Source: Paracoccus yibinensis
GTDB taxonomy: Bacteria; Pseudomonadota; Alphaproteobacteria; Rhodobacterales; Rhodobacteraceae
Direction of reading: 5' to 3'
Length of the DNA stretch: 64,000 bases
NCBI RefSeq assembly: GCF_030846195.1
Contig: NZ_JAVCWH010000004.1
Location: 1 to 64,000 of the forward strand
Part shown: one piece after another, positions 18,650 to 32,515 of the stretch
How positions within the stretch are numbered: the stretch's first letter is position 1
How the letters are laid out: every line of letters begins with the position of its first letter
The notes under the pieces: model-generated
Told to the model about the DNA's origin: nothing
Seen by the model: the letters and a program-made list of their open reading frames with translations, nothing else
Database searches by the model: none
Program-made: the position numbers and the translations under genes

Positions 18650-20890
18650 TCAGATGTTCAGAAACTTATAGGCCACCCGCGCCAGCGTTTCGGGGGTGAT
18701 GGGCTTGTAAAGCAATTCGACGGATTGCCGCGCCGCCTGCTGGGCCAGCGCCACGGATCGTTCCGCCGTCATCAGGCATTTCGCCGGCCGGCCCGGCAAC
18801 AGCGGTTCCATCGCGGCCAGACAGGCCAGCCCGTCCATCCCCGCGCCCAGCCGGTAATCGACAAGGCACAGATCGGGTTCGACCCCGGTATCCCGCAACA
18901 GCGCCAGCGCATCCTCGCCCGAGGGCACGTCCAGCACGTTGATGCCCCATTGTTCCAGCAATTGCGACAGGGCCAGCGTGACCTCGGCATCGTTCTCGAC
19001 GATCAGCGCGGTCATGTCGATGATCTCGTCGGGCGCTGCGGGGGCGGGGGCGCTGCGGTGCAGCCGGTGATCGCCCTGCCGGGTCGAGGCCAGCTCGACC
19101 GAAAAGGTCGAGCCACAGCCCGGCGCCGATCGCAGGTCCAGCCGGTGGCCCAGCAGCGATGCGGCGCGTTCGACGATGGCCAGCCCCAGCCCCAGCCCCT
19201 CGGCGGCGCTGGCCTTGGCATCCAGACGTTTGAATTCCTTGAAGATATCCTGCTGGTCGCCGGCGGCGATGCCGCGCCCGGTATCGCGCACCTGGATCAG
19301 CTGGCGGTCGGGCCGGCGGCGGGCGGTGACCAGAACCCGGCCCCGATCGGTATAGCGGATCGCATTCGAGATCAGGTTCGCCAGAATCCGCCGCAGATAG
19401 ATGCGGTCGGACACCACCGTCGCATGGGCCGGGCGGATGATCAGCTCGATCCCCTTTGCCTCGGCGACCGGGGTGAATTCGTCGCGCAACTGGTCGAACA
19501 GTGGCCGCAGCGAGATCGGCTCGATCGTCAGCGCCGCCTGACCGACCTCGAGCCGCGAGATATCCAGCAGGGCGCCCAGCAGGCCGCTGACCGAATCGAG
19601 CGAGCGCTGCACGTTTTCCAGCTTGGCCCGCTGCTGCGGCGGGGCCACGTCCTCGATCAGCGACCCGACATAGAGCGTGGCCGCCGACAGCGGCTGCATC
19701 AGGTCATGGCCCACCGCCGCGACGAAACGGATGCGGGACGCATTGGCCCGTTCGGCGCTGGCCAGCGCGTCTTGCAGTTCCAGCGTGCGTTCGATGACCC
19801 GCGCTTCCAGCGTTTCATTGGCGCGGCGGATGGCCAGCATCGTATTGCGTTCTTCGGTGATGTCGTCGATCGACATCACGAAGCCACCATCGGGAATTTC
19901 CTGCGCATAGATGGCCAGCGCGCGGCCGCCGCCATCGCGGGTCACCTCGACCTTGAAACTGTCCTTGCGGCGGACCGAGCGCACCCAGTCGACCAGCCGG
20001 TTGACCCCCTGATGGGTCGGGAATGACAGTTGCGCGCGCAAGTGATGCAACAGGTCATCGACCAGCAGACCGGCGCGCAGCCGGGCACGCGGGATCGCCA
20101 GCATCTCGCCCAGACGGGCATTCCAGCCGATCAGCCGCAGCCGCGCGTCAAAGATGCACACCCCCAGCGGCACATGGTCCAGCGTTGCCTGCAACACGGC
20201 GGTCTGGTCATCCAGCAGCCGTCCGCGCTCGGCCCGCTCGCTGAGGATCAGGTCGGTCACGTCGGTTTGCAGGATCGCGGTGCTGCCGTCGCTGGTGCGC
20301 TGTTCGGACACCTGCACCCAGCGGCCGTCGGCCATGCCCTGGGTCAGGATGAAATGGCGTTCGCTGTGGCGCTTCTTGCGCATCTCGATCCAGCCGTCGC
20401 GCGTCATGCCCGGCGGGATGACGAGATGGCGCGAACTGGCGACGAGGTGCAGATAGTCGTCAAAGCCAAGACCCGGCCGCAGCCGGTCGACGATATCGGG
20501 CAGCAGCGCGTTGAAACGGGCATTGCACAGGATCAGCCGGTCCTGCGGATCGAACAGGGCAAAGCCTTCCTGAATGGTTTCGATCGCCGCCGACAGGTTC
20601 TGCCGCGCCAGTTCCTTTTCGCGGAATGCATCGGCCAGTTGCGCATTCGACGCGTTCAGCAGGTCGAGCGCGCGTTCCAGATCGCGGGTGCGGGCGCGGA
20701 CCTCGTCCTCCAGCACGGCGGCGCGTTGAAACTGGGCATAGCCGGCGCCGCTGTCCTCGGGCAGGTCCTCGACATGGCGGATCAGCGCCTGGGTGATGCG
20801 CACCAGCTTTTCATGGCGCCGATCCGGGCTGTCGCCGGGCGCCATCATCCGTTCGACATCGGTCGGCAGATCCGTGCGCGCGCCGGTCAT
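18650..20890 (-). CDS. Soluble hybrid histidine kinase, NahK/ErcS-like
   Basis: A 746-aa kinase without membrane helices. Order: a coiled-coil-like N-terminus (about 50-100), PAS-type domain (about 100-215), second PAS (about 230-345), linker helix, HisKA with FVAAVGHDLMQPL (phospho-acceptor H395), HATPase with the LISNAIRYTDRG N-box, and a receiver domain (626-746) with acceptor D678 in LCLVDYRLGAG. This matches NahK/ErcS' hybrid kinases that control ethanol oxidation and NO responses in Pseudomonas. Its start overlaps the stop of the FIST gene (ATGA), so the sensor pair is co-translated. Phosphate is expected to pass to the LuxR-type regulator two genes upstream. Confidence 0.9.
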   Translation of the reverse strand: MTGARTDLPTDVERMMAPGDSPDRRHEKLVRITQALIRHVEDLPEDSGAGYAQFQRAAVLEDEVRARTRDLERALDLLNASNAQLADAFREKELARQNLSAAIETIQEGFALFDPQDRLILCNARFNALLPDIVDRLRPGLGFDDYLHLVASSRHLVIPPGMTRDGWIEMRKKRHSERHFILTQGMADGRWVQVSEQRTSDGSTAILQTDVTDLILSERAERGRLLDDQTAVLQATLDHVPLGVCIFDARLRLIGWNARLGEMLAIPRARLRAGLLVDDLLHHLRAQLSFPTHQGVNRLVDWVRSVRRKDSFKVEVTRDGGGRALAIYAQEIPDGGFVMSIDDITEERNTMLAIRRANETLEARVIERTLELQDALASAERANASRIRFVAAVGHDLMQPLSAATLYVGSLIEDVAPPQQRAKLENVQRSLDSVSGLLGALLDISRLEVGQAALTIEPISLRPLFDQLRDEFTPVAEAKGIELIIRPAHATVVSDRIYLRRILANLISNAIRYTDRGRVLVTARRRPDRQLIQVRDTGRGIAAGDQQDIFKEFKRLDAKASAAEGLGLGLAIVERAASLLGHRLDLRSAPGCGSTFSVELASTRQGDHRLHRSAPAPAAPDEIIDMTALIVENDAEVTLALSQLLEQWGINVLDVPSGEDALALLRDTGVEPDLCLVDYRLGAGMDGLACLAAMEPLLPGRPAKCLMTAERSVALAQQAARQSVELLYKPITPETLARVAYKFLNI

Positions 20891-22074
20891 GGGGTGCCGT
20901 CCGGCCCGTAAAAGGCGATCCCGGTCAGCGTCTGGTTGACATGCATAGTGCCGATCTGTTCGCCATAGGTGGAAAAGCCCGTGACGCGGTTTTCGGCCAG
21001 GATGCGGCTGACCTCGGTCGTCTGCTGCATGCTTTCGGCAGCGATCCGGCGAAAGATACAGTCAAAGCCCAGCACCATCCGGGGCGTGCGGTCGCGCCGC
21101 AGATCACGCATGACGCCGCCCAGATGCGCGGCCAGATCGCTCTCGGCCGACAGGGTCAGGACCATGCCCTCGGCCACGGCGCCAAAGAAGACCAGCGAAT
21201 CTTCCGGCCCGACATGGCGGATGGCGCGGACATGGTGGCGACCGCCGGCGCGGACCAGAACCGGGCGGGTGGCGAAGATTTCGGGCCCGAGGCTGTCGAC
21301 CGGGCGGTCCAGCAGCCGCGCATATTCGCGCGCCGCCGGTTCGTCATTGATGCGCAGCACGGCGCGGTTGACCGGATCGGCGCTGGTCACCACCATCTGG
21401 GTGCGCGACGGGCAGGTCGCGTCAAAGGAAAACACCCGGAACGGCGCCCGCGCACGCAGCAGGCAAAGGACCGCCGCGCGGGTGCGGATCTTGCCATCGG
21501 CAAAGACATGGGTGCGCACCAGCTGGCGGTCGTCGCCGGCCGATCCGCCCACCGTCGGCATCGGCCCCAGCCCACCGGCCAGTGCGGCGATCAGCTGTTC
21601 TTCATGGCCCGACAGCCCGTCAACCATCAGGATCGCCAGCTCATGCGCGAAATCCCCGCGGCGGCGGTGCAGCGCCTGCCGCGCACGGCGCAGCCGGGCG
21701 ATGACGTCGCGGCTGTCGACCGCATCGACCGGGTCGATCAGCACGGTTTCGGCGGCAAAGCCGGCGGCGGGAAAGCCGACCGCGACCAGATGCCCGTCGG
21801 CATAGCCGGTTTCGCAGATTTCGCCTGCCGTGGTGCAGCCGGCGATTTCGCTGCGCGGGAAGGTCTCGGTCGCGCGGGCCAGGATCGCGTCCATGTCAGC
21901 GGCGCGGGCGGCAAACAGGATGATCAGCGCAAAGGGGCCGGGCCCAAGCGCGGCGGCCAGCCGCGCCACCGGGTCGGGATCATCCATCGGCACGGATGCG
22001 CGGCACGGGGCCAGCACGTCTTTCGCGCCCTCGCTGCCGGGGGGTGGCGGGTTAAGTGTTTCCTCCGGCATCAT
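20887..22074 (-). CDS. FIST-domain sensor protein (NosP-like)
   Basis: A 395-aa cytoplasmic protein with a FIST N domain (FALIILFAARAADMDAILARA, then EIAGCTTAGEI and a GGLGPMPTVGGSAGDD block) and a FIST C domain (MVLGFDCIFRRIAAES, ending NRVTGFSTYGEQIG). In Pseudomonas aeruginosa, NosP is a FIST protein that binds heme and NO and regulates the adjacent kinase NahK; the same gene pair is seen here, so a gas-sensing input is plausible. The heme ligand cannot be identified from this sequence alone. The start (22074 or 22071) lies inside the end of the response-regulator gene, implying coupling. A ligand-binding FIST without heme is the alternative. Confidence 0.85.
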   Translation of the reverse strand: MMPEETLNPPPPGSEGAKDVLAPCRASVPMDDPDPVARLAAALGPGPFALIILFAARAADMDAILARATETFPRSEIAGCTTAGEICETGYADGHLVAVGFPAAGFAAETVLIDPVDAVDSRDVIARLRRARQALHRRRGDFAHELAILMVDGLSGHEEQLIAALAGGLGPMPTVGGSAGDDRQLVRTHVFADGKIRTRAAVLCLLRARAPFRVFSFDATCPSRTQMVVTSADPVNRAVLRINDEPAAREYARLLDRPVDSLGPEIFATRPVLVRAGGRHHVRAIRHVGPEDSLVFFGAVAEGMVLTLSAESDLAAHLGGVMRDLRRDRTPRMVLGFDCIFRRIAAESMQQTTEVSRILAENRVTGFSTYGEQIGTMHVNQTLTGIAFYGPDGTP

Positions 22075-22765
22075 TCAACAGCCCCGTCATCTTCGCGTCC
22101 CGCGCCATCAGCACCGCCTGCGTTCGCGAGGTGACGCCCATCTTGCGCATGATCGCGGTGACATGCGCCTTGACGGTTGTTTCCGCTATGGCGAGCTCAT
22201 GCGCAATCTGCTTGTTCATCTTGCCCTCGCAGATCAGGTCAAGAATCCGCGCCTGCTGATTGGTCAGTTGCGACAGCCGGCGGATCGCGGTGTCGCGCCC
22301 GGATGGCGGCATCGCGTCCAGTTCTTCGTCAGTGGGCAGGTCGGGGGCATAGATTTCCCCCGCCGCCAGCGCCTGAAAGGCGGCCTTGAACACCTCGCGG
22401 CGGGAATGTTTCGGCACGAAGCCCGCGGCCCCGGCGGCCAGCGACGCCCGCACGACCCGCGTTTCATTGACCGATGTGACAAGCAGGATCGGCGTCTGCG
22501 GCGCGATCCGGCGCAGCGTGATCAATCCTTCCAGCCCGTCGACATCGGGCAGGTTCAGGTCCAGCAGCACGACATCGAAACTGCCGCCATCGGTCAGCAT
22601 CCCGGCCGCCTGCGTCAGGTTCTCGGCATGCAGGACGGTTTCGATCCCCGACACCGATTGCAGCGTCATGGCCAGCGCGTCACCGAACAGCGGGTGATCC
22701 TCGATGATCAGCGCGGTGCGAAAGGCGGCATCGGCCTCGGGTGTCGGAATTGCGCTGGTCGCCAT
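22052..22765 (-). CDS. LuxR/NarL-type response regulator, ErbR/AgmR-like
   Basis: A 237-aa response regulator: receiver domain (about 17-135) with acidic pocket IIEDH and acceptor D69 in VVLLDLNLPDVDG, then a LuxR-type helix-turn-helix (about 165-225) with LTNQQARILDLICEGKMNKQ and TVKAHVTAIMRKMGV. ErbR/AgmR/ExaE regulators of this layout activate quinoprotein alcohol dehydrogenase genes in Pseudomonas. It is the first gene of the RR-FIST-kinase operon and is followed by overlapping FIST. A GGTCG dyad copy (22839-22847) in its upstream gap suggests autoregulation. Confidence 0.92.
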   Translation of the reverse strand: MATSAIPTPEADAAFRTALIIEDHPLFGDALAMTLQSVSGIETVLHAENLTQAAGMLTDGGSFDVVLLDLNLPDVDGLEGLITLRRIAPQTPILLVTSVNETRVVRASLAAGAAGFVPKHSRREVFKAAFQALAAGEIYAPDLPTDEELDAMPPSGRDTAIRRLSQLTNQQARILDLICEGKMNKQIAHELAIAETTVKAHVTAIMRKMGVTSRTQAVLMARDAKMTGLLNDAGGNT

Positions 22766-22838
22766 GGCAGGCCCTTTGGGTTGGAGGGATGGGTGACGTT
22801 TTGTCTAGGTTGTGTCGTGCGCTGCGCCGAGCCGTAAA

Positions 22839-22847
22839 TTGGTCGAA
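22839..22847 (-). promoter_or_regulatory. CGACCA-type operator candidate upstream of the response regulator
   Basis: Plus-strand TTGGTCGAA; on the minus strand it reads TTCGACCAA, 74 bp before the response-regulator start. It carries the half site shared with the four other sites in this cluster. Both this site and the one upstream of the dehydrogenase are followed on the minus strand by TACGGC. Confidence 0.45.
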
Positions 22848-22932
22848 CATGCGGCCTCGGGATGGGGCGCGATGACGAAAGGGACGCGAACCGCCGGCCC
22901 GCGCCCCTGACGATGCCACTGGCAAGCGCCTG

Positions 22933-24699
22933 TCAGTTGGCCGCCAGCTGCTTGGGCAGCTTGAAGGTCCAGACGGTGCCGCCCTGGTTCAGATAGTTGA
23001 CCTTCTTGGCGACCTCGCCGCCCCACAGCGGCACGGCGCCGCCCCAGCCCGAGACGATCGAGACATATTGCTCGCCATCCTGTTCCCAGGTGATCGGCTG
23101 GCCGACGATGCCCGACCCGGTCTGGAACGACCACAGGATTTCGCCCGTGGCGTCATCCAGCGCCATGAAGTCACCCTCGGGGTTGCCCATGAAGACCAGG
23201 CCGCCGGCGGTGGTCATCACGCCGCCCCACAGGGGTGCGTCGTTCTTGTATTCCCATTTCACTTCGCCGGTATTGGGGTCGATCGCCTTCAGGCTGCCGA
23301 TATGGTCGTCGAAGATCGGCTTGATGGTAAAGCCCGCGCCCAGATAGGCCGCGCCCTTCTTGAAGCTGATCGGTTCGTTCCAGATGTCCATGCCCCATTC
23401 GTTCGAGGGCACATAGAACAGTTCGGTCGACTGGCTATAGGCCATCGGCATCCAGTTCTTGCCGCCGAGGAAGGACGGCACCGCAAAGACCTGCTGGCCC
23501 TTGCCGCCTTCGGCGGCCTCATTGGCGGCGCCGGGGCGGTTGTCTTCGTTATAGATCGGCCGGCCCGTGTCATCGATGCCGGATGCCCAGCTGATGTTCT
23601 GAACAAAGGGCCAGGCGTTGACATAGGCGCCATCCTGACGGTTCAGGACATAGAAATAGCCGTTCCGGTCGGCGGTGGCGAAACGCTGGTTGCCGTCCTT
23701 GTCGACAAAGGGCACGACCTCGTTCACGCCGTCGAAATCCCAGCCTTCGCGCGGGGTGGACTGGAAATGCCACTTGATCTCGCCAGTGGCGGGGTCGATC
23801 CCCAGACGCGACGCGGCATAGAGGTTGTCGCCCTTGTTGCCTTCAACGGGTTCGCCGGCGCCGCGCAGGTGGCTGTTCCAGGGCGACGGGTTGCCGGTGC
23901 CAAAGACCAGCGTGTTGGTGTCCTTGTCATAGGACCCGCCCAGCCAGGTCGCCCCGCCGCCGGTCTTCCACATGTCGCCCGGCCAGGTGGCGTTCAATTC
24001 GCCGGTCATGGTGCTTTCCGCGCCGTTCAGCGTGCCCATGTGCCCTTCGATCACCGGGCGCGTCCAGACGGTTTCGCCGGTTTCGGCATCGCGGGCCTGA
24101 ACCTCGCCGACGACGCCGAATTCACCGCCGGAATTGCCGGTGATCACCAGCCCGTTCACGATCAGCGGTGCGGCGGTATAGGAATAGCCTTCCTTGTAAT
24201 CGGCGATCTTCTTGTTCCATTTCACGTCGCCGGTCTTCAGGTCCAGCGCGACGATCCGCGCGTCCAGCGTGCCGAAATAGAAATTGTCGCCAAAGATCGC
24301 GCCGCCGCGATTGACCACGTCACAGCAGGGCAGGATCCCTTCGGGCAGGCGGGCGTCATATTGCCAGACTTCCTTGCCGGTCTTCAGGTCGACCGCATAG
24401 ACGCGGGAATAGGACCCGGTGACATACATCATCCCGTCATGGATCAGCGGCTGGCTTTCCTGGCCGCGCTGCTTTTCGCCGCCAAAGGAAAAGGCCCAGG
24501 CGGGCACGAGGTTCTGGACATTGTCCTTGTTCAGGGTGGTCAGCGGGCTGAAACGCTGAAGGTCGCGGCCCATGCCGTTGGTCAGCACGTCGCCCGTCGA
24601 TGCCTGGTCATTGGCCAGGTCTTCCTCGGTGACGGCGGCGCCGGCCGCCGTGGCGATGCCGGTCATTGCCAGGACCGTCGCCAGCACGAATCTGTTCAT
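22933..24699 (-). CDS. PQQ-dependent alcohol dehydrogenase with lanthanide signature (ExaF/PedH-like)
   Basis: Periplasmic type I quinoprotein alcohol dehydrogenase, 588 aa, oxidising primary alcohols with PQQ and passing electrons to a cytochrome c. A signal peptide covers residues 1-21. Eight-bladed propeller features are present: the vicinal cysteines C125-C126, E193 in GGEFG, N270 in GTGNPSPWN, and the catalytic region WDFDG at 320-324 with D321. D323, two residues after the catalytic Asp, is the extra acid that marks lanthanide-dependent enzymes; calcium enzymes have Ala or Ser there. No heme domain is fused. The start at 24699 has GGAGGAGAG upstream. Substrate range is not predictable; ethanol and other short or aromatic alcohols are likely. 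Confidence 0.93.
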
Positions 24700-24797
24700 G
24701 TTCTCTCCTCCGCTTGGTGTCGGCCTCTCTTTGTGCCGAACCGGCCCGAGGCGTCTGGCGGTGAGTATGCGGATCGCCCCGCCGCGCCGTATATTGT

Positions 24798-24812
24798 CCA
24801 TTGGTCGAATGG
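24798..24812 (-). promoter_or_regulatory. Operator candidate upstream of the alcohol dehydrogenase
   Basis: CCATTGGTCGAATGG is a 5-bp perfect inverted repeat around GGTCG, about 100 bp upstream of the dehydrogenase start. It shares TTGGTCGAA with the site before the response regulator. Confidence 0.5.
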
Positions 24813-24837
24813 GTCGGCGTGGTGGGGGCGGGCGGCG

Positions 24838-25383
24838 TCAGAACAGGTTCTGATAGCGCCATTCATCCGCGTCGGGCGTGACCGCGCGGGGGTCGTAATC
24901 GGCGGCCTGCAGATCGCGCGCCGTTGTCAGGCCCTGCTGCGCCGCGCCGTCGATCATGCGCCGGCCGGCCTCGGGATCGCGCGCGACGCCGTGGCCGCGC
25001 AGCAGGTCCAGCCCCCGGTTCAGCATCCCGACCGGATCGCCGGCATCGGCCGCGCGGCGATCCCATTCGGCGGCGCGGGCCGAATCCTGCGGCCCGCCCA
25101 GCCCGTTTTCATCCATCTGCCCCATCCAGGTCATCGCCCCGGTCCAGCCATCATCGGCGCAGCGTTCGAACAGGGTCCGGGCCGGGCCGTGGCGGCCGCT
25201 TTTGGTGATGTAATAGCCGGCGGCGCAATTCGTCATCGTGGTTTGCCCGCGTTCGATGTCGCGCATGACGCGCTGCCAGGTCATCTCGTCGGGGTTCAGG
25301 TCGCCAAGCTGATCGGCGTCCTGCGCGGCGGCGGGCAGCGCGCAAAGGGCCGCAAGCGCAGCCCCGCAGATGATCCGAATCAT
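24838..25383 (-). CDS. Secreted Sel1-repeat-type protein
   Basis: A 181-aa exported protein. The signal peptide (MIRIICGAALAALCALPAAAQ) is cleaved near residue 20. The mature part has helical repeats of the Sel1/TPR kind: GPARTLFERCADDG, GLGGPQDSARAAEWDRRAADAG and GHGVARDPEAGRRMIDGAAQQG, each with the A-x-x-x-[WF/M]-x-x-x-A-A spacing. Two cysteines (C53 and C75) could form a disulfide. It is transcribed toward the dehydrogenase gene and divergently from a binding-protein gene, sharing the operator-like site at 25446. A periplasmic adaptor role with the dehydrogenase is a guess. The start is supported by GGAGGATGGGAA. Confidence 0.8.
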   Translation of the reverse strand: MIRIICGAALAALCALPAAAQDADQLGDLNPDEMTWQRVMRDIERGQTTMTNCAAGYYITKSGRHGPARTLFERCADDGWTGAMTWMGQMDENGLGGPQDSARAAEWDRRAADAGDPVGMLNRGLDLLRGHGVARDPEAGRRMIDGAAQQGLTTARDLQAADYDPRAVTPDADEWRYQNLF

Positions 25384-25445
25384 TTCCCATCCTCCGCCGG
25401 TTGCCAGACGGCTGAAGATAGCACCGCGCCCCGCGGTCCGGGCTT

Positions 25446-25457
25446 GGACCATGGTCG
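25446..25457. promoter_or_regulatory. Operator candidate in the divergent Sel1/binding-protein gap
   Basis: GGACCATGGTCG, containing the palindrome GACCATGGTC, lies about 62 bp from the Sel1 start and 52 bp from the binding-protein start. It could serve both divergent promoters. Confidence 0.5.
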
Positions 25458-25509
25458 TATTTTCGCGGCCGGCCAATTTTCCCAGACTTCGGCGAAAGGG
25501 GGACTTTGC

Positions 25510-26685
25510 ATGTTTCGATGGCTGTCCGCGCCGCTTGCCTGCATTGCCGTCGCAGGCAACGCGGCGAGTGCCGAACAGGTGCGCATCGACCTGATCGAGC
25601 GGCAGGTGACGCCGCCGCCGATCCTGTCGAACCTGATCGCGCCGCCGCCCGATCTGGGCGTGGCCGGCGCCCGTGTCGCGCTGTCCGATATCGCCACGAC
25701 GGGCCGCTTTCTGGGCCATGAATACCGGCTGAACGAAACCATCGTCGCGCCGGATGACGATTTTCTGGCGGCGGCACGCGCCGCCCTGGCGGATGGGGCG
25801 CGGCTGATGGTGGTCAAGGCGCCGCCGGCCGATCTGCTGGCGCTGGCCGATCTGCCCGATGCCGCCGGTGCGGTGATCTTCAACACCGCGGCCCCCGATG
25901 ACAGCCTGCGCGGGGATGATTGCCGCGCGAATGTCCTGCACACAACGCCCAGCCTGTCGATGCGGGCCGATGCGCTGTCGCAATTCGCGTTGAAAAAGCA
26001 ATGGACCGATCTGGCGATGGTCCATGGACCGAACCCCGAAGACGCCGCCTTTGCCGATGCGATCCGCGCCTCGCTGACGAAATTCGGGATCGGGCTGAAG
26101 GGCGAGGCGGACTGGAAATTCGATGCCGACATGCGCCGTGTCGCCTCGGCCGAGGTGCCGCTGTTCACCCAGGACCTGCCCGAACATGACATGCTGATCG
26201 TGGCCGATGAACGCGGCGATTTCGGCCGCTATATCGCCTATAACACCTGGCAGGCGCGGCCCCTTGCCGGGTCCGAAGGGATCATGCCGCGCGGCTGGTC
26301 GCCGGTGGTCGAAAACTGGGGCGCGGCGCAGTTGCAAGGCCGGTTCCGGGACGCCGCGCATCGCGACATGCTGGTGCAGGATTTCGGCGCCTGGGCCGCC
26401 GTCGCCGCGATTGGCGAGGCCGTGACCCGCGCCGGGACCGCCGATCCTGGCGCCTTGCGCGACTATATCCTGTCGGATCAGTTCCGGCTGGCCGGGTTCC
26501 TCGGCACGCCCCTGTCGTTCCGCGGATGGGACGGCCAGATGCGCCAGCCGATCCCGCTGGTCACGGAACGCGCCGTCGTCAATGTCGCGCCGCTGGAAGG
26601 TTTCCTGCACCAGCGGTCCGAACTCGACACGCTGGGCACCGACCTGCCCAGCACCACCTGCACCAAATTCGGAGTTGCCCGATGA
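25510..26685 (+). CDS. PQQ-cluster ABC-type substrate-binding protein
   Basis: A 391-aa periplasmic protein with a signal peptide (MFRWLSAPLACIAVAGNAASA) and the look of the branched-chain-type binding proteins that accompany PQQ alcohol dehydrogenases (I recall such a family beside these enzymes). Visible blocks: DLGVAGARVALSDIATTGRF, VVKAPPADLLALADL, and a distal RGWDGQMRQPIPLV. No ABC permease or ATPase lies nearby, so it may not work in import; sensing or dehydrogenase maturation is possible. It overlaps the following beta-propeller gene by ATGA, which fixes them as one unit. Confidence 0.8.
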   Translation: MFRWLSAPLACIAVAGNAASAEQVRIDLIERQVTPPPILSNLIAPPPDLGVAGARVALSDIATTGRFLGHEYRLNETIVAPDDDFLAAARAALADGARLMVVKAPPADLLALADLPDAAGAVIFNTAAPDDSLRGDDCRANVLHTTPSLSMRADALSQFALKKQWTDLAMVHGPNPEDAAFADAIRASLTKFGIGLKGEADWKFDADMRRVASAEVPLFTQDLPEHDMLIVADERGDFGRYIAYNTWQARPLAGSEGIMPRGWSPVVENWGAAQLQGRFRDAAHRDMLVQDFGAWAAVAAIGEAVTRAGTADPGALRDYILSDQFRLAGFLGTPLSFRGWDGQMRQPIPLVTERAVVNVAPLEGFLHQRSELDTLGTDLPSTTCTKFGVAR

Positions 26686-27668
26686 CGCCCCGCCGCTGCC
26701 TGCTTGCGCTGTCCACGTCGCTGACGCTGGCCCTGACCCTGGCCGGCCCGGCCCTTGCCGATGAAATCTGGGTCACCAATGAACTGGACGACACGATCAG
26801 CGTCATCGATGTCGACACGCTGGCGGTCACCGCGACCTATCCGACCGGCCAGCGCCCGCGCGGCGTCACCTTTTCGCGCGATTTCAGCAGGCTCTATATC
26901 TGCGCGTCGGATTCGAATGCGGTGCAGGTGATGGATCCGGAAACCGGCGAGATCCTGCATGATCTGCCATCGGGCGCCGATCCCGAACAATTCGTCATCT
27001 CGCCCGATGACCGGCTGCTTTACATCGCGAATGAAGACGACGCGATCACCACCGTCGTCGATACCGAAAGCCGCAAGGTCGTCGCCCAGATCGATGTCGG
27101 GATCGAACCCGAAGGGATGGGGATATCCCCCGATGGCAAGATCCAGATCACCACGTCCGAGACGACGAACATGGCGCATTGGATCGACACCGAAACCCAG
27201 CAGATCATCGCCAATACGCTGGTCGATTCGCGGCCGCGCCACGCGGAATTCAGCCCCGATGGCAAGGAATTATGGGTCAGCGCCGAGGTCGGCGGCACGG
27301 TCAGCATCTTTGATGTCGCGACCCAGGCCGAACTGGCCAAGATCAGCTTTGCACTGCCGAATATCCGCCCCGAAAAGCTGCAGCCCGTGGGGATGCGCTT
27401 TTCGCCCGACGGGGCGCGGGTCTTTGTCGCGCTGGGGCCGGCCGACCATATCGCGGTGGTCGATGTCGCGACGCGCGCGGTGACGGATTACATCCTCGTC
27501 GGGCGCCGGGTCTGGCATCTGGCGTTTTCGCCCGACAACACGAAACTGTTCACGACCAATGGCGTATCGGGCGATGTTACGGTGATCGACGTCGCTTCGC
27601 TGACCCCGGTCAAGACGATCAAGGTGGGGCGTTTTCCCTGGGGCGCCTCGGCCCGGCCGACCGACTGA
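26682..27668 (+). CDS. YVTN-type beta-propeller protein associated with PQQ catabolism
   Basis: A 328-aa exported protein (signal peptide ending PALADEIWV). The mature part is built of about seven repeats of the type DTISVIDVDTLAVTATYPTG, RPRGVTFSRDFSRLYI and HLAFSPDNTKLFTTNG, giving a seven-bladed propeller. Proteins of this kind are regular partners of quinoprotein alcohol dehydrogenases with the binding protein encoded just upstream. No PQQ ligands are apparent, so it is probably not an enzyme in its own right. The start overlaps the upstream stop (ATGA). It ends about 90 bp before the cytochrome gene, with an operator-like dyad in between. Confidence 0.85.
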   Translation: MTPRRCLLALSTSLTLALTLAGPALADEIWVTNELDDTISVIDVDTLAVTATYPTGQRPRGVTFSRDFSRLYICASDSNAVQVMDPETGEILHDLPSGADPEQFVISPDDRLLYIANEDDAITTVVDTESRKVVAQIDVGIEPEGMGISPDGKIQITTSETTNMAHWIDTETQQIIANTLVDSRPRHAEFSPDGKELWVSAEVGGTVSIFDVATQAELAKISFALPNIRPEKLQPVGMRFSPDGARVFVALGPADHIAVVDVATRAVTDYILVGRRVWHLAFSPDNTKLFTTNGVSGDVTVIDVASLTPVKTIKVGRFPWGASARPTD

Positions 27669-27677
27669 AAAGTCGCA

Positions 27678-27691
27678 TCGACCAAGGTCGA
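27678..27691 (+). promoter_or_regulatory. Operator candidate upstream of cytochrome c-550
   Basis: TCGACCAAGGTCGA is a perfect 6-bp inverted repeat with a 2-nt spacer, the best of the five copies in the cluster. It lies 65 bp upstream of the cytochrome c start. Confidence 0.55.
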
Positions 27692-27756
27692 ATTGCCGCG
27701 CATGCAGCACGGATCGACACTGAACCACGCCGCGAACGGGACAGGAGGAACCGCCC

Positions 27757-28446
27757 ATGACGACCAAGTTTCACAAATCCCTGCTGGCCGCCATCGCCGC
27801 CGGGTGCATCGCCGTGCCGGTTCAGATCATGGCCCATGGCGATGTCGCGCCGCAGCCGATAAACACCGATGCGCTGCCCGAGGTGGGCGAGGAATGGCTG
27901 ACCGAAAACCCCTATCGGGCCGAGGCGGCGGGCGACGAGGTCTGGCTGACCGCGGTGAAAATCGGCGATTCCGGCTATAACCAGAACTGCGCGCGCTGCC
28001 ATGGCCTTGGCGCCGTGTCGGGCGGGCTGGCGCCCGACCTGCGTTTCCTTGAGGCCGAGGAATATGGCGATGAATGGTTCATCGAACGGTTCCGCCACGG
28101 CTATACTCAGGATGGCACGACCAAGATGCCGGCCTTTGGCGATGTGCTGGGCCAAAAGGCCGCTTGGGCGATCCGCACCTATATCGAAACCCGCCCCGAA
28201 GATGGCGCGCTGGACGCGGCCTCGGACCGGCTGCATGAAATTCGGGACCTTCTGACCAAGGGCGAAGGCGATCCGGCCGCCCTGAAGACCGAGTTGACGG
28301 AAATCGCAACGGGCGTGGTCACCGCATCGGGCGCCCCGGTCGCCGACAGCGCCGTGTCGCGCGCCGCTGCCGCGCTGACCGATGATCCGGCATCCGGGAA
28401 ACATGCCGCCGAATTGCTGACGATCGGGCTTTCCGCATCGAACTGA
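27757..28446 (+). CDS. Cytochrome c-550, PedF-like
   Basis: A 229-aa periplasmic mono-heme cytochrome c. A signal peptide ends near AHG (residue 28). The heme site is C78-A-R-C81-H82 and the likely axial Met is M124 in TTKMPAFG; the remaining C-terminal region is helical and Ala-rich. Cytochromes of this type take electrons from PQQ alcohol dehydrogenases (ExaB/PedF). The start has AGGAGG 8 bp upstream. It begins a two-gene unit with the following binding protein, 8 bp away. Its own operator-like dyad suggests it is controlled with the dehydrogenase. Confidence 0.9.
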   Translation: MTTKFHKSLLAAIAAGCIAVPVQIMAHGDVAPQPINTDALPEVGEEWLTENPYRAEAAGDEVWLTAVKIGDSGYNQNCARCHGLGAVSGGLAPDLRFLEAEEYGDEWFIERFRHGYTQDGTTKMPAFGDVLGQKAAWAIRTYIETRPEDGALDAASDRLHEIRDLLTKGEGDPAALKTELTEIATGVVTASGAPVADSAVSRAAAALTDDPASGKHAAELLTIGLSASN

Positions 28447-28454
28447 GGGATGTG

Positions 28455-29351
28455 ATGGGATCAGGTTTTCCGATTGCGGGCGCGGCCCTGCTGGTCTTTC
28501 TGGCCGGGGCCGCGCCCGGTTTTGCATCCTGCGCCGGCGTGGCGCCCGATCAGCGCCAGCAGAACAGCTTTCCGCAGGATATCGGCCGCACGCTGGACCG
28601 GATCACCGACGAGGGCTGGATTGAGATCGCGGTCTATGAAGATTTCCCGCCCTGGTCCTATCTGGCCAATGGCCAGCCGGCCGGGATCGATGTCGATCTG
28701 GCGCGGCTGATCGGCGGCGATCTGGGCGTCGAGACCCGGATCCGCATGGTCCAGGCGGGCGAGACGCTGGACCAGGACCTGCTGAACTATGTCTACAAGG
28801 GCGCGGCGGTGGGCGGGCATGTGTCGAACCTGTTCCTGCATGCGCCCTATGACGTGGATTATGCCTGCCGTTTCGATCAGGTCGTCTTCACCGGCATCTA
28901 TGCCGAGGAACATCTGGCGATCGCCTATGCACGCGCCGAATACCCCGAAAAGCCGCCTGTTCCGGCCTTTTTCCGTTACGACACGGTGGGGGTCGAAAAC
29001 GATTCCATCTCGGATTTCTTCCTGACCGGGCTGGTCGGGGCGGCGGGCGACAAGGTGCATCGCTATCCCAATGTCGCGCAGGCGATGGCGGCCCTGGTGG
29101 CGGGGGACGTGATGGCGGTGATGGGCCCGCGCGCCCAGCTGGAAGCCGGCGCGACGGACGCCATCGGCATCCATGAGCCGCCCTTTCTGGGGCTGGAACG
29201 GTCGAAATGGACGCTGGGGCTGGCCCTGTCGACCCAGCACCGGCCGCTGGGCTATGCGGTGGATGACATCATCGGCGCGGCCATTGCCGACGGGCGGATG
29301 GAACGGATCTTTGCCGATCATGGCGTGACCTATCTGCCGGCGGTGCGCTGA
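28455..29351 (+). CDS. Quinoprotein dehydrogenase-associated substrate-binding protein (XoxJ-like)
   Basis: A 298-aa family-3-type periplasmic binding protein. The signal peptide ends near GFASC; the mature N-terminus has two cysteines. Family blocks: GWIEIAVYEDFPPWSYLANG, QPAGIDVDLARLIGGDLG and the C-terminal MERIFADHGVTYLP. Proteins of this class (MxaJ, XoxJ) accompany methanol and other PQQ dehydrogenases and are thought to help assemble or activate the enzyme rather than feed a transporter. It is 8 bp after the cytochrome gene. A GTG at 28452 is an alternative start. It converges on the apbE gene, with 28 bp between the stops. Confidence 0.82.
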   Translation: MGSGFPIAGAALLVFLAGAAPGFASCAGVAPDQRQQNSFPQDIGRTLDRITDEGWIEIAVYEDFPPWSYLANGQPAGIDVDLARLIGGDLGVETRIRMVQAGETLDQDLLNYVYKGAAVGGHVSNLFLHAPYDVDYACRFDQVVFTGIYAEEHLAIAYARAEYPEKPPVPAFFRYDTVGVENDSISDFFLTGLVGAAGDKVHRYPNVAQAMAALVAGDVMAVMGPRAQLEAGATDAIGIHEPPFLGLERSKWTLGLALSTQHRPLGYAVDDIIGAAIADGRMERIFADHGVTYLPAVR

Positions 29352-29379
29352 AACGGGGGCAGGCCGGGGGCGGGGCGCG

Positions 29380-30264
29380 TCAGAGCGTCGTCAGGTTGCC
29401 ATCGAAATCGACCAGCCGCACCGGGCCGGTGTCCAGCCGCCGGGCGGCGGCGGCGATGGCCGGGCGATCCATCAGCACAAAGGCCGTCGATGCCGCATCG
29501 GCCAGCGCGGCTGTTCCTGCCTCGACCGACACCGTGGACCAGCGCGGGCGCTGGCCTGCCGGGCCGATGATATGGCTCTGCCCGCCCGGAAAGACCAGCG
29601 CGCCGGGCGATGATGTCGCGATGGCCCGCCCCGCGCGCAGCGTCAGCCGCCCCAGAACCCCGGCGTCGGGATCGGCCAGTTCCAGCGCGAAATCGCCGCC
29701 AATGGCGCGGGTTTCGCCCAGATCGACCAGAATATCGCCAAGGCCGCGGTCCGCCAGCAGCGCGGCGGCGCGGTCGGTCGCGATCCCCTGGGCGATGCCG
29801 TTCAGCGTCACGGCCTGACCCTGCGCCAGCCGCAGGTCGCGCCCGTCGCGCACCAGCCCGCCAAGCGGCGTCAGGGGCCCGGGCGCCGCGCCACCGGCCA
29901 GCGCCTGCCACAGGACCTGGACCCCGGGGTCAAAGACGCCGCCGGTCGCGCCATGCACCCGCCGGGCCAGCGTCACGGCATCCAGCAGATCATCCGACGC
30001 GGTGACGCGGCCGTTGCGGTTCAGGCGCGTCACCTCGGAATCGCGGAACAGCGAAAACACCGCCTCGATGCGCCCGATCATGGCGCGCAGATCGGCCAGC
30101 ACCCTGTCCGGCGCGGCGCCGCCCCGGATCACGATGCGCGCATCCGCGCCCAGCGCCTGGCCGCGCCATTCGGCCGCCGCCGCCTTCGCCGCCACCGTCG
30201 CCGCCGCCGGGCCGGCGACCAGCGCCCCGGCGGTGATCGTCAGAAAGCGCCTGCGCCCGATCAT
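29380..30264 (-). CDS. apbE: FAD:protein FMN transferase (ApbE)
   Basis: ApbE attaches FMN covalently to a Ser/Thr of periplasmic flavoproteins using FAD. The 294-aa protein has a twin-arginine-like N-terminus (MIGRRRFLTITAGALVAG) and family blocks DPGVQVLWQALAG, LNGIAQGIATDRAAALL, ILVDLGETRAIGG, AIATSSPGALVFPGG and ADAASTAFVLM. The start overlaps the stop of the NosR-like gene (ATGA); that protein has a flavinylation motif and is the obvious substrate. The start at 30264 was preferred over an extended frame because of this coupling and the signal sequence. Confidence 0.92.
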   Translation of the reverse strand: MIGRRRFLTITAGALVAGPAAATVAAKAAAAEWRGQALGADARIVIRGGAAPDRVLADLRAMIGRIEAVFSLFRDSEVTRLNRNGRVTASDDLLDAVTLARRVHGATGGVFDPGVQVLWQALAGGAAPGPLTPLGGLVRDGRDLRLAQGQAVTLNGIAQGIATDRAAALLADRGLGDILVDLGETRAIGGDFALELADPDAGVLGRLTLRAGRAIATSSPGALVFPGGQSHIIGPAGQRPRWSTVSVEAGTAALADAASTAFVLMDRPAIAAAARRLDTGPVRLVDFDGNLTTL

Positions 30265-32315
30265 GCCGCCATCCTCCGGCCGCGCGCCTTCAGGATCAAG
30301 GGCACGCACTGGCCCGGGTCGTCATGGATCTTGACGCAGTCAAGGCACTGGAAACATTCGGAATAGCGGATTTCGCCCTTGGGCGCGATGGCGTCATATT
30401 TGCAGCGCACGCGGCACAGCTGGCAGGGGCTGCCGCAGGCCGCGCGGCGCGGGATCCAGCGGCGCAGGCGCAGCACCCCGCCGATCCGCATCAGGGCGCC
30501 AAGCGGGCAGATCGACCGGCAGAACCCCTTGAACCAGACCATCGACACCGCCAGCCAGCCGCCCGCCCACAGCACATAGGGCCAGGGGCGGTCGAAATGC
30601 ATGGTGATGGCGGTCTTGAACGGCTCGATCTCGGCCACGGTTTCGGCGTGGTCGGGGGCGATAAAGGCGACCGCGATCAGACCGGCCAGCGCCACCGGCC
30701 CGGTCCACAGCAAGGCACGGCCGAGGCTGCGCGGCGGTTCCCATTCCGGCAGCCCCAGCCGCCGCCCGGCGTGATGGGCGAATTCCTGCATCGCCCCAAA
30801 GGGGCACAGCCAGCCGCAGAACAGCCCGCGCCCCCACAGGACGAAACCAATGATCGCCGCCGCCCAGACCATCAGCGAGAACGGATCATAGAGCAGCACC
30901 GCCAGCCCGCCGCCCTGCGTCACCCCGCGGATCACCGCAAGCGGCGTGACGATCGACAATTGCCCCTGACCCCAGAACCCGACAAAGCCGATCACGGCCG
31001 CCAGGATTGTCAGCCGGATGGCGGTGAAACGCCGCTGCCGCGCCAGCCAGCTTTGCCGCATCAGCGCGGCGCCCAGCCCCAGCAGCCCCGCCGCCAGCAG
31101 GATCAGGTCCAGCCGCCGGTTGCGCAGCGCATCGACCCAGGGCGCGGTCTGCACCGGCGCGGCGGCCGCCAGAAAGAAGCGTTCCGGCAGGCCCATGGCC
31201 AGATCGAAATCGCGGATGCCGGTTTCGGGTTGGAACATGCCATGTTCGCGCTGCGCATGCAGCACCAGCGACCAGTCGCGGCTCGGGTCAAAGCCCAGTC
31301 GCCGGTCCAGCCGCACCACCATGATCGTCGCATCCTGCAACGCATCAGGCAGGTCCGGGTGCAGCTCGGCCAGGATATCGGCATCGCGCAGTGCCAGCGG
31401 CAGCCCGTCCTGCACCGCGCCGATCCGGTCGGGGGCGGTATTGCGGATGAAATCGGGGCCGACCAGCCCGTGCCGCCCGGCCTCGATCAGCAGGATCATC
31501 TCATCATCCGGGGCCAGCGTGGTCAGCCGCCGGACCTCGGCCAGGGTGGCGGGGGCAAGGACGGCGGCGGCAATCGCCGGCGGGCCGATATCGACGGCGA
31601 ACAGGTCCAGATAGGCGCCGTCCGGGTCGGCCGCGGCATCCGGGTCGTCATCGGCCCATTGCGTGCCGGCAAAGGCGGCATCGGCATCGGCATTGCTGAC
31701 CAGCAGGTGCCGCGCCAGCCCCTGCGCCAGCATCGCATTCCAGTCCAGCGCTTCGGCGTGATCGGGATCGGGGCGCGGCGGGGGGCCGGCGCTGATCCCC
31801 TTCATCTTTTCGCGCGCCACGGCTAGGGCGGAGGCGAGGATCGATTCATGCGCGATCCGGACGCTGGCCGTGGCCTTGGTGACGCCGTCGAGGTAGACCA
31901 GATCGCCCCCCGCCTGATCGCCATAGGGGCTGCCGACGACCAGCGCCTGATTGATCGAATGGCCGCGATATTGCGACAGGAACTGGCGCAGCGGTGCCTC
32001 GCCCAGACCGGACACGAAGATCGGCTCGTTATGGGCCAGCAGCCGCACGTCGATGAACGTGCCCTCAAGATCCAGCAGCACCAGCATGTTGATCGGCTGT
32101 CCGGAAAAGCCGGGCAGGGGCGCCAGCGGGCCGGTTTCAAACACATAGCCCGCATCGCCGCCGCCCGAATTCGTCAGCCCCCAGACGCCCTTGTCGTTCA
32201 ACGGCTCGCCCAGCGCATAGGGCGCCGCGATCATGTCGCCAAGCGCCGCGCGCGTCAGCGGTTCGGCGTGCAGGGGGGCGGCCCAGAACAGGATCAGCAA
32301 CATCAGCCAGCGCAT
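30261..32315 (-). CDS. NosR-like membrane flavin/iron-sulfur protein
   Basis: A 684-aa polytopic protein in the NosR/NirI family. Order: signal sequence (1-17), periplasmic FMN-binding domain with the flavinylation motif TKATAS at 146-151 (attachment expected on T149), a long periplasmic region, about six membrane helices, two CxxxCP motifs (CGWLCPFG, CRSICPLG) in the membrane part, and a C-terminal pair of 4Fe-4S clusters (CGSPCQLCRVRCKYD, CFQCLDC). NosR serves N2O reductase maturation, but no nos gene is present; here it sits in the PQQ cluster with apbE. It may carry electrons between the quinone pool, periplasm and cytoplasm. An operator-like site lies 36 bp upstream. Confidence 0.88.
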   Translation of the reverse strand: MRWLMLLILFWAAPLHAEPLTRAALGDMIAAPYALGEPLNDKGVWGLTNSGGGDAGYVFETGPLAPLPGFSGQPINMLVLLDLEGTFIDVRLLAHNEPIFVSGLGEAPLRQFLSQYRGHSINQALVVGSPYGDQAGGDLVYLDGVTKATASVRIAHESILASALAVAREKMKGISAGPPPRPDPDHAEALDWNAMLAQGLARHLLVSNADADAAFAGTQWADDDPDAAADPDGAYLDLFAVDIGPPAIAAAVLAPATLAEVRRLTTLAPDDEMILLIEAGRHGLVGPDFIRNTAPDRIGAVQDGLPLALRDADILAELHPDLPDALQDATIMVVRLDRRLGFDPSRDWSLVLHAQREHGMFQPETGIRDFDLAMGLPERFFLAAAAPVQTAPWVDALRNRRLDLILLAAGLLGLGAALMRQSWLARQRRFTAIRLTILAAVIGFVGFWGQGQLSIVTPLAVIRGVTQGGGLAVLLYDPFSLMVWAAAIIGFVLWGRGLFCGWLCPFGAMQEFAHHAGRRLGLPEWEPPRSLGRALLWTGPVALAGLIAVAFIAPDHAETVAEIEPFKTAITMHFDRPWPYVLWAGGWLAVSMVWFKGFCRSICPLGALMRIGGVLRLRRWIPRRAACGSPCQLCRVRCKYDAIAPKGEIRYSECFQCLDCVKIHDDPGQCVPLILKARGRRMAA

Positions 32316-32351
32316 GGGGGCAGACTAGCGCCGCCGCGCCGCTCATAAATG

Positions 32352-32363
32352 CGACCAAAGTCG
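32352..32363 (-). promoter_or_regulatory. Operator candidate upstream of the NosR-like gene
   Basis: CGACCAAAGTCG (4-bp inverted repeat with a 4-nt spacer) lies 36 bp upstream of the NosR-like start, in the 200-bp divergent gap. It is the weakest dyad of the five but keeps CGACCA. Confidence 0.4.
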
Positions 32364-32515
32364 ACCGCGTGCCGGTCGGGGCGCGGTCCGGCGGCCGCGA
32401 CCGCTAGCCCCGCATCAGCATCGCGCGAAAGCCGGACCAAGGGCCAAAAGCCCGTGGCCAGAAAGGGTTGCGCGCGCGGGAAGGCGTGAATGCTGTGCAT
32501 AGGGATGGTGTTGTC

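Follow-up and report, generated by a model that had tools for sequence, protein, structure and literature searches.

The first 64,000 nucleotides of contig NZ_JAVCWH010000004.1 from Paracoccus yibinensis (hereafter the window) carry a gene cluster for alcohol oxidation dependent on pyrroloquinoline quinone (PQQ), whose promoter gaps contain the putative operator sites that are the subject of this work. In the cluster the gene of a LuxR-type response regulator (RR1) adjoins genes for a NosP-like protein and a NahK/ErcS-like kinase, both of which score below the respective NCBIfam cut-offs, and these are accompanied by genes for a PQQ-dependent alcohol dehydrogenase (ADH), a Sel1-like protein, an ABC substrate-binding protein (SBP), a β-propeller protein, cytochrome c-550 (PedF), a second substrate-binding protein for which ‘MoxJ-like’ is our own label, and a NosR-like/ApbE pair (Table 1). 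We write ‘NosR-like’ only, since the 434 bits obtained do not reach the NCBIfam cut-off of 1000. The same protein contains DGVTKAT (31869-31889, minus strand), which we take to resemble the flavinylation motif of ApbE, and the ApbE gene lies next to it.

A first-pass annotation had proposed that one CGACCA/GGTCG dyad occupies every gap of the cluster where transcription should begin (22839, 24798, 25446, 27678 and 32352), as a common binding site for the ErbR-like regulator encoded there. All five words are present, but they represent three forms of site rather than one: a type I palindrome, AATWCGACCAWGGTCGWATT, at the Sel1/SBP, PedF and NosR-like promoters, a type II variant, TTCGACCAATGGACAA, at ADH, and no more than a half-site at the RR1 promoter. 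The ADH site does lie upstream of its gene, as had been claimed, because the signal peptide and orthologs place the start at 24699 and not at 24801.

What distinguishes these sites is the 20-bp palindrome, its AT-rich flanks and its conservation, and not the bare core. Matched against CGACC-N2-GGTCG, the site at 27678 is the sole 10/10 in the window, those at 25446 and 32352 score 9/10, and those at 24798 and 22839 are not CGACC/GGTCG dyads by the plain core. The bare core is not special, because 11 of the 14 cores with at least 9/10 in the window fall outside the five gaps. There are 103 copies of CGACCA in the window, 5 of them within the 668 bp of gaps, where about 1 would be expected; TCGACCAA occurs 6 times, 3 of them in gaps, and a loose dyad with up to 3 mismatches is widespread (534 versus 345 expected). 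Genome-wide, the 16-bp pattern with up to 2 mismatches gave 56 matches against 52 for a backward-read control, and thus no enrichment. Core counts separate gaps from coding DNA poorly and were rejected as a discriminator. The earlier caution that such GC-rich words recur by chance was well placed for the bare words, which are common in coding DNA, whereas the full box is not.

To describe the full box we used a symmetric 20-bp matrix made from 27 training 20-mers of 12 relatives (L034-L045; L, G and C numbers are our handles for loci, genomes and contigs), from which the window's own sites were excluded and the near-identical loci L032 and L033 omitted. The training 20-mers were chosen from lists of best matches and not blind, and at least 2 sites entered in both orientations. 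The top four window positions of this relatives-only matrix were 27675, 25442, 24792 and 32348, all in the named gaps. In 50 simulated windows the highest score was 18.1 and the mean of the maxima 11.5; the sites at 24792 (12.9) and 32348 (11.3) are therefore within the reach of chance by score, and both rest on conservation. Genome-wide, our 16-bp ranking covers the 50 listed of 56 matches and has the 16-mers at 27677 and 25444 in first and second place; 15 matches were examined in context and 13 of these were dropped for overlap with long open reading frames (ORF overlap, not annotation), leaving a site before pqqA (C54:36515) and, once a gene start was revised, one at C54:29076. The third-best listed match, C54:294736 (16-mer score 21.3), was set aside as it lies inside a 537-aa ORF. 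The XoxF-type paralog cluster L046 contained no site above 8.2.

Conservation at the same promoters was assessed in 23 loci, which belong to rhizobia, to Rhodobacterales outside Paracoccus and to related metagenome-assembled genomes (L184-L209 minus the Paracoccus loci L193, L194 and L203), all of them out of sample for the matrix. A site was counted at a score of at least 12 within 300 bases upstream, and regions shorter than 150 bases were dropped. Such sites were found at 20/22 SBP, 19/21 PedF, 15/16 NosR-like and 12/18 ADH promoters, or 66 of 77 target promoters altogether, and at 6 of 17 Sel1 promoters; as divergent pairs share sites, physically they amount to 51 separate sites, spread over 21 of the 23 loci. 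By contrast, operon-internal genes of these loci had none in 88 regions (β-propeller 0/23, MoxJ-like 0/21, ApbE 0/18, FIST 0/14, kinase 0/12). Against the 66 observed, 200 palindrome-preserving permutations of the matrix columns yielded at most 4 matches in the 77 regions, and Markov shuffles at most 1 per gene class. Related clusters thus do carry the box at their promoters, where its absence had been named beforehand as grounds for giving up the proposal. Further afield, dyads of a related kind occur at seven Pseudomonas loci, of which four have CTCCCTTGGTAGTAG in the pedF gap and three have TACTACCTTGGTACTGCC before SBP, each the sole match of at least 12/14 positions within its locus; three Azospirillum loci scanned in the same way had no related dyad.

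The type II form, TTCGACCNNNGGACAA, is identical at 13 of 13 fixed positions in the window and in L032-L038 (8 of 8 clusters with ADH there, or 6 non-redundant ones without the near-identical L032 and L033), and it stands 81-110 bases before the revised ADH start as an invariant block amid poorly alignable DNA. If one mismatch is allowed, the 4.33-Mb genome has a single match, that at ADH, versus 5 for the backward-read control. The form is also found before PedF in L037 and, in L174 and L175, before paralogs of PedF, and at ADH its place is taken by type I sites in L043 and L045. The element at 22839 consists of one intact half-site and a degenerate, widely spaced second half. Response regulator promoters of L034, L035 and L168-L172 have the half-site followed by a sequence like TTTACAGGTCGG, of which the window copy has two mismatches. 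A half-site scoring at least 10 was present in 14 of 32 such promoters and absent in 18, versus 3.75% of shuffles, in a test that includes loci used to make the matrix. Although the half-site recurs, the copy at 22839 may be due to chance.

The boxes also stand at a fixed spacing from a -10-like hexamer. Across 113 box-to-gene segments, not all of them independent, similarity to TATAAT is greatest 41 bases past the box start (1.84 matches versus 0.6-0.9 at offsets 20-36), and the A+T fraction reaches 0.81 at offset 42. If the hexamer at this fixed offset is taken as -12 to -7, the box extends from about -53 to -34, with its centre near -43. The spacing is a computed property of the segments; it is the anatomy expected of a class-II activator site, from which we infer activation here rather than repression.

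The box also appears beyond the cluster, which would extend the regulon originally envisaged. In the window's genome a copy lies about 255 bases before pqqB, at pqqA (C54:36515). Upstream regions of pqqB were scanned in 81 of 83 genomes (G015, weak, and G031, in pieces, were left out), and a pqqA box scored at least 8 in 55 and at least 12 in 39 of them, compared with 2 and 0 for reversed sequence. The regulon probably extends to pqqA. That the presence of this box follows that of RR1 was considered and rejected: boxes of at least 12 were found in 13/16 genomes with a close RR1 and 6/18 with only a more distant relative, and also in 20/47 with neither. Near pqq, a gene for a regulator of GAF/HTH_8 (Fis) type (G000:C54:28070-29093; L066 68-1094) has a strong box, AATTCGACCAAGGGCTAATT (score 22.1), 57-76 bases before its start. 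Of the 82 genomes that have this gene, 30 were scanned, and 16 of these, the window's genome included, have a box of at least 12 there.

Which regulator reads these boxes? All 15 genomes with the cluster have an RR1-like protein (E≤1e-50), versus 23 of the 86 without it (Fisher p 5e-8, uncorrected for relatedness), and G097 retains one though it is on another contig. The helix-turn-helix (HTH) stretch IAETTVKAHV is identical in RR1 and in the SBP-adjacent response regulator of the seven Pseudomonas loci, despite an overall identity of only about 35%. RR1 does not qualify as a CrbR/ErdR equivalog (161 bits with the ErdR model, cut-off 390). From this co-occurrence and the conserved sites we infer that RR1 binds the boxes, and think it likely that they are class-II activator sites of this ErbR/AgmR-type regulator, with the NosR-like/ApbE pair included in its regulon. 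A phosphorylated RR1 dimer would bind the 20-bp dyad, or its variant at ADH, beside a poor -35 element, and would recruit sigma-70 polymerase to the Sel1-ADH, SBP-β-propeller, PedF-MoxJ-like and NosR-like-ApbE units, and the half-site at its own promoter might confer weak autoregulation. The phosphorylation state of RR1 would presumably depend on the NahK/ErcS-like kinase and the NosP/FIST protein.

Several observations weigh against this interpretation. The NosR-like site of the window scores only 11.3 (its 16-mer being about 21st among the listed genome matches), a value equalled by chance-level sites elsewhere in the genome, and G045 and G085 have no box at the NosR-like gene. The RR1 promoter is without a full dyad, and outside Paracoccus only 2 of 14 response regulator promoters reached 12. 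In the distant loci L210-L259 the matrix is weak (SBP 9/49, ADH 0/15, RR 0/13; PedF 10/15) and also matches MoxJ-like (4/15) and FIST (2/8) genes. Furthermore, the core is not diagnostic of RR1, because the pqqA box is kept in genomes without a close RR1.

The last point bears on an alternative that we consider unlikely, though it is the strongest of the rivals, namely that the boxes are read mainly by a paralog of RR1 or by all paralogs jointly. The genome has two further paralogous sets of response regulator, FIST protein and kinase genes (L065 3895-7986 on G000:C61; L066 13314-16499 on G000:C54), so that three NosP-linked sets coexist in one cell with that of the cluster. The regulator on C54 (RR2, G000:C54:41313-42020), which stands beside pqqBCDE with FIST and kinase genes after it, is 42% identical to RR1, and that on C61 (RR3, C61:7330-7962) is 51% identical. 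The HTH stretches of all three are closely similar. RR2, the foremost candidate, is present in 81 of 101 genomes, the pqqA box of at least 8 occurs whatever the RR1 class, and this box is absent in three of the four genomes that lack RR2 and had pqqB scanned (G036, G064 and G078; not G075). Yet perfect cluster boxes (10/10 cores at the RR and ADH promoters and in the gap that SBP and PedF share) are kept in G045 and G085, neither of which has RR2 at E≤1e-60, and it is RR1, not RR2, that is encoded in the cluster, accompanies it without exception and travels with it. RR1 is probably not the sole reader, as the pqqA copy occurs without it: the core is probably read by the regulator family, with cross-talk likely, and the common operator proposed at the outset is supported for the cluster, NosR/ApbE included, and is consistent with an ErbR-like regulator, but reaches beyond it to pqqA and the GAF/Fis-type gene. 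This raises the question of how a nearly identical operator would be shared or divided among the three NosP-linked regulators of one cell. A weak box, ACCGCGACTTTTGTCGCAGA (11.4; L066 13209-13228), lies directly upstream of RR2, whose autoregulation through it is possible. G085 (L043) and G045 (L045) have the PQQ-ADH cluster and no pqqB match at E≤0.001, and perhaps rely on PQQ from outside or have a diverged pathway.

A palindrome does not by itself name its protein, and the box could in principle be bound by an unrelated regulator or be a repressor operator; we regard this as very improbable, given that its core and promoter position are those of the CrbR box, that RR1 co-occurs with the cluster, and that related dyads occur in the AgmR-dependent ped clusters of Pseudomonas. 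That the sites are chance recurrences of GC-rich words, as the bare counts above might suggest, is scarcely credible and is refuted for the four at 27675, 25442, 24792 and 32348 by the matrix ranking, the recurrence of sites, with controls, at the corresponding promoters of other genera and the invariant ADH block.

The segment 18626-33756 (15 kb) matches P. beibuensis at 99.86% and Paracoccus sp. R12_2 at 98.97% DNA identity, whereas identity in the pqqB region is no more than about 82%; boxes and regulator therefore moved together, which points to a recent horizontal transfer of the whole cluster. A relative (79% covered, 77.6% identity) is found on a 296-kb plasmid in P. aestuarii. Although speculative and on balance rather doubtful, it is attractive to think that a phosphorelay responsive to nitric oxide (NosP/FIST, NahK/ErcS-like kinase and RR1) controls, through one box in tuned forms, both periplasmic PQQ-dependent alcohol oxidation and a NosR-like/ApbE flavin electron conduit in Rhodobacterales and rhizobia, as a 15-kb unit that moves from species to species with its own switch. 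If true, alcohol oxidation would be wired to nitric oxide and to a membrane electron shuttle.

Table 1. Genes, boxes and promoter hexamers of the PQQ cluster in the window.
Feature	Positions	Strand	Basis
NahK/ErcS-like hybrid histidine kinase	18650..20890	-	NCBIfam NahK/ErcS' 389 bits (cut-off 1500); NahK/ErcS-family C-terminal model 340 bits (cut-off 400)
NosP-like FIST protein	20887..22074	-	FIST domains; NCBIfam NosP 344 bits (below cut-off 450)
RR1, LuxR/NarL-type response regulator, proposed box reader	22052..22765	-	Response_reg and GerE domains; best NCBIfam match ErdR
Half-site element TTCGACCAATTTACGGCTCGG upstream of RR1	22827..22847	-	Full-box matrix score -2.4, rank 108
PQQ-dependent alcohol dehydrogenase (ADH)	22933..24699	-	TIGR03075, 767 bits, above cut-off; ATG and adjacent cysteines; ORF from 24801, start revised
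-10-like hexamer CATACT, ADH	24764..24769	-	Position profile; conserved in alignment
Type II box CATTCGACCAATGGACAATA upstream of ADH	24792..24811	-	Matrix 12.9, window rank 3
Sel1-like protein, same strand as ADH and upstream of it	24838..25383	-	Sel1 26.7 bits (below cut-off 30.7)
-10-like hexamer TATCTT, Sel1	25415..25420	-	Position profile
Type I box GCTTGGACCATGGTCGTATT in the gap of the divergent Sel1/SBP pair	25442..25461	+	Matrix 24.5, window rank 2; second among 50 listed genome matches
-10-like hexamer CAGACT, SBP	25483..25488	+	Position profile
SBP, ABC substrate-binding protein of PQQ-ADH systems	25510..26685	+	TIGR03863, 469.5 bits, above cut-off
PQQ-associated β-propeller protein	26682..27668	+	TIGR03866, 510 bits, above cut-off
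Type I box GCATCGACCAAGGTCGAATT upstream of PedF	27675..27694	+	Matrix 25.6, window rank 1; first among 50 listed genome matches
-10-like hexamer GACACT, PedF, 41 bases after box start	27716..27721	+	Position profile
PedF, cytochrome c-550	27757..28446	+	TIGR04494, 193 bits, above cut-off
SBP_bac_3 protein (MoxJ-like) downstream of PedF	28452..29351	+	SBP_bac_3 domain
ApbE-family protein	29380..30309	-	PF02424, 110 bits
NosR-like membrane flavoprotein/ferredoxin	30261..32315	-	NCBIfam NosR; Fer4_5
-10-like hexamer TAGTCT, NosR-like gene	32322..32327	-	Position profile
Type I box CGGTCGACTTTGGTCGCATT upstream of NosR-like gene	32348..32367	-	Matrix 11.3, window rank 4; 16-mer score 12.9, about 21st among 50 listed genome matches

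The closest described box is the ACTU box of the LuxR-type response regulator CrbR/ErdR in Pseudomonas fluorescens, which according to passages of the source spans -52 to -36 relative to the acs start and is needed for activation, four point mutations abolishing acs promoter activity (PMC5715377). As in the ACTU examples given there (TACTACCATCGTCGAAT, GCCGACCAAGGTCGAA), the Paracoccus box is an imperfect inverted repeat with the same core and register; its matrix has the ACC-N2-G(G)TC-type core of the ACTU repeat, and the position deduced from the hexamer (about -53 to -34) is nearly the same. It differs in its longer AT flanks and in the second form at ADH, and CrbR, for its part, serves acetate-use genes with a partner kinase of SLC5/STAC type (PMC5715377). 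In P. aeruginosa, passages of an AIDmut-Seq study give 15 target promoters for ErdR, 13 of them confirmed by gel shift, among which those of agmR and ercS do not figure (PMC9927353); this also weighs against the interpretation of RR1 as reader of the boxes, and members of the regulator family therefore have distinct target sets.

In gene content the nearest counterpart is AgmR/ErbR/PedR1 of Pseudomonas, a LuxR-type regulator encoded beside NosP and NahK/PedS1 genes that activates ped and pqq genes, its targets being PQQ-ADH, pedF and pqq (PMC12997753, in part). This target set is matched here by predicted sites only, at ADH, PedF and pqqA. The available passages of that source give no operator for the regulator, and their ped table rows have no NosR-like/ApbE pair (PMC12997753). 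In the open-access literature, as represented by titles, the beginnings of abstracts and the passages cited, we found no published AgmR/ErbR box, no link to NosR/ApbE, and no DNA box for ErbR/AgmR-type regulators in alphaproteobacteria. Within the genus, FlhSR of Paracoccus denitrificans is likewise a two-component control of one-carbon (C1) and alcohol oxidation genes, in that case of formaldehyde and methanol genes, as far as the passages of PMC8879981 go; RR2 might be the FlhR of P. denitrificans. Judged by these comparisons, the box appears to belong to the ACTU/CrbR kind and the regulon to resemble that of AgmR/ErbR, with the second form at ADH and the NosR-like/ApbE member as its new elements. 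The sites described here thereby provide a concrete predicted DNA box for ErbR/AgmR-type regulators in alphaproteobacteria, and through conserved promoter sites they place the NosR-like/ApbE pair in an alcohol-oxidation regulon.

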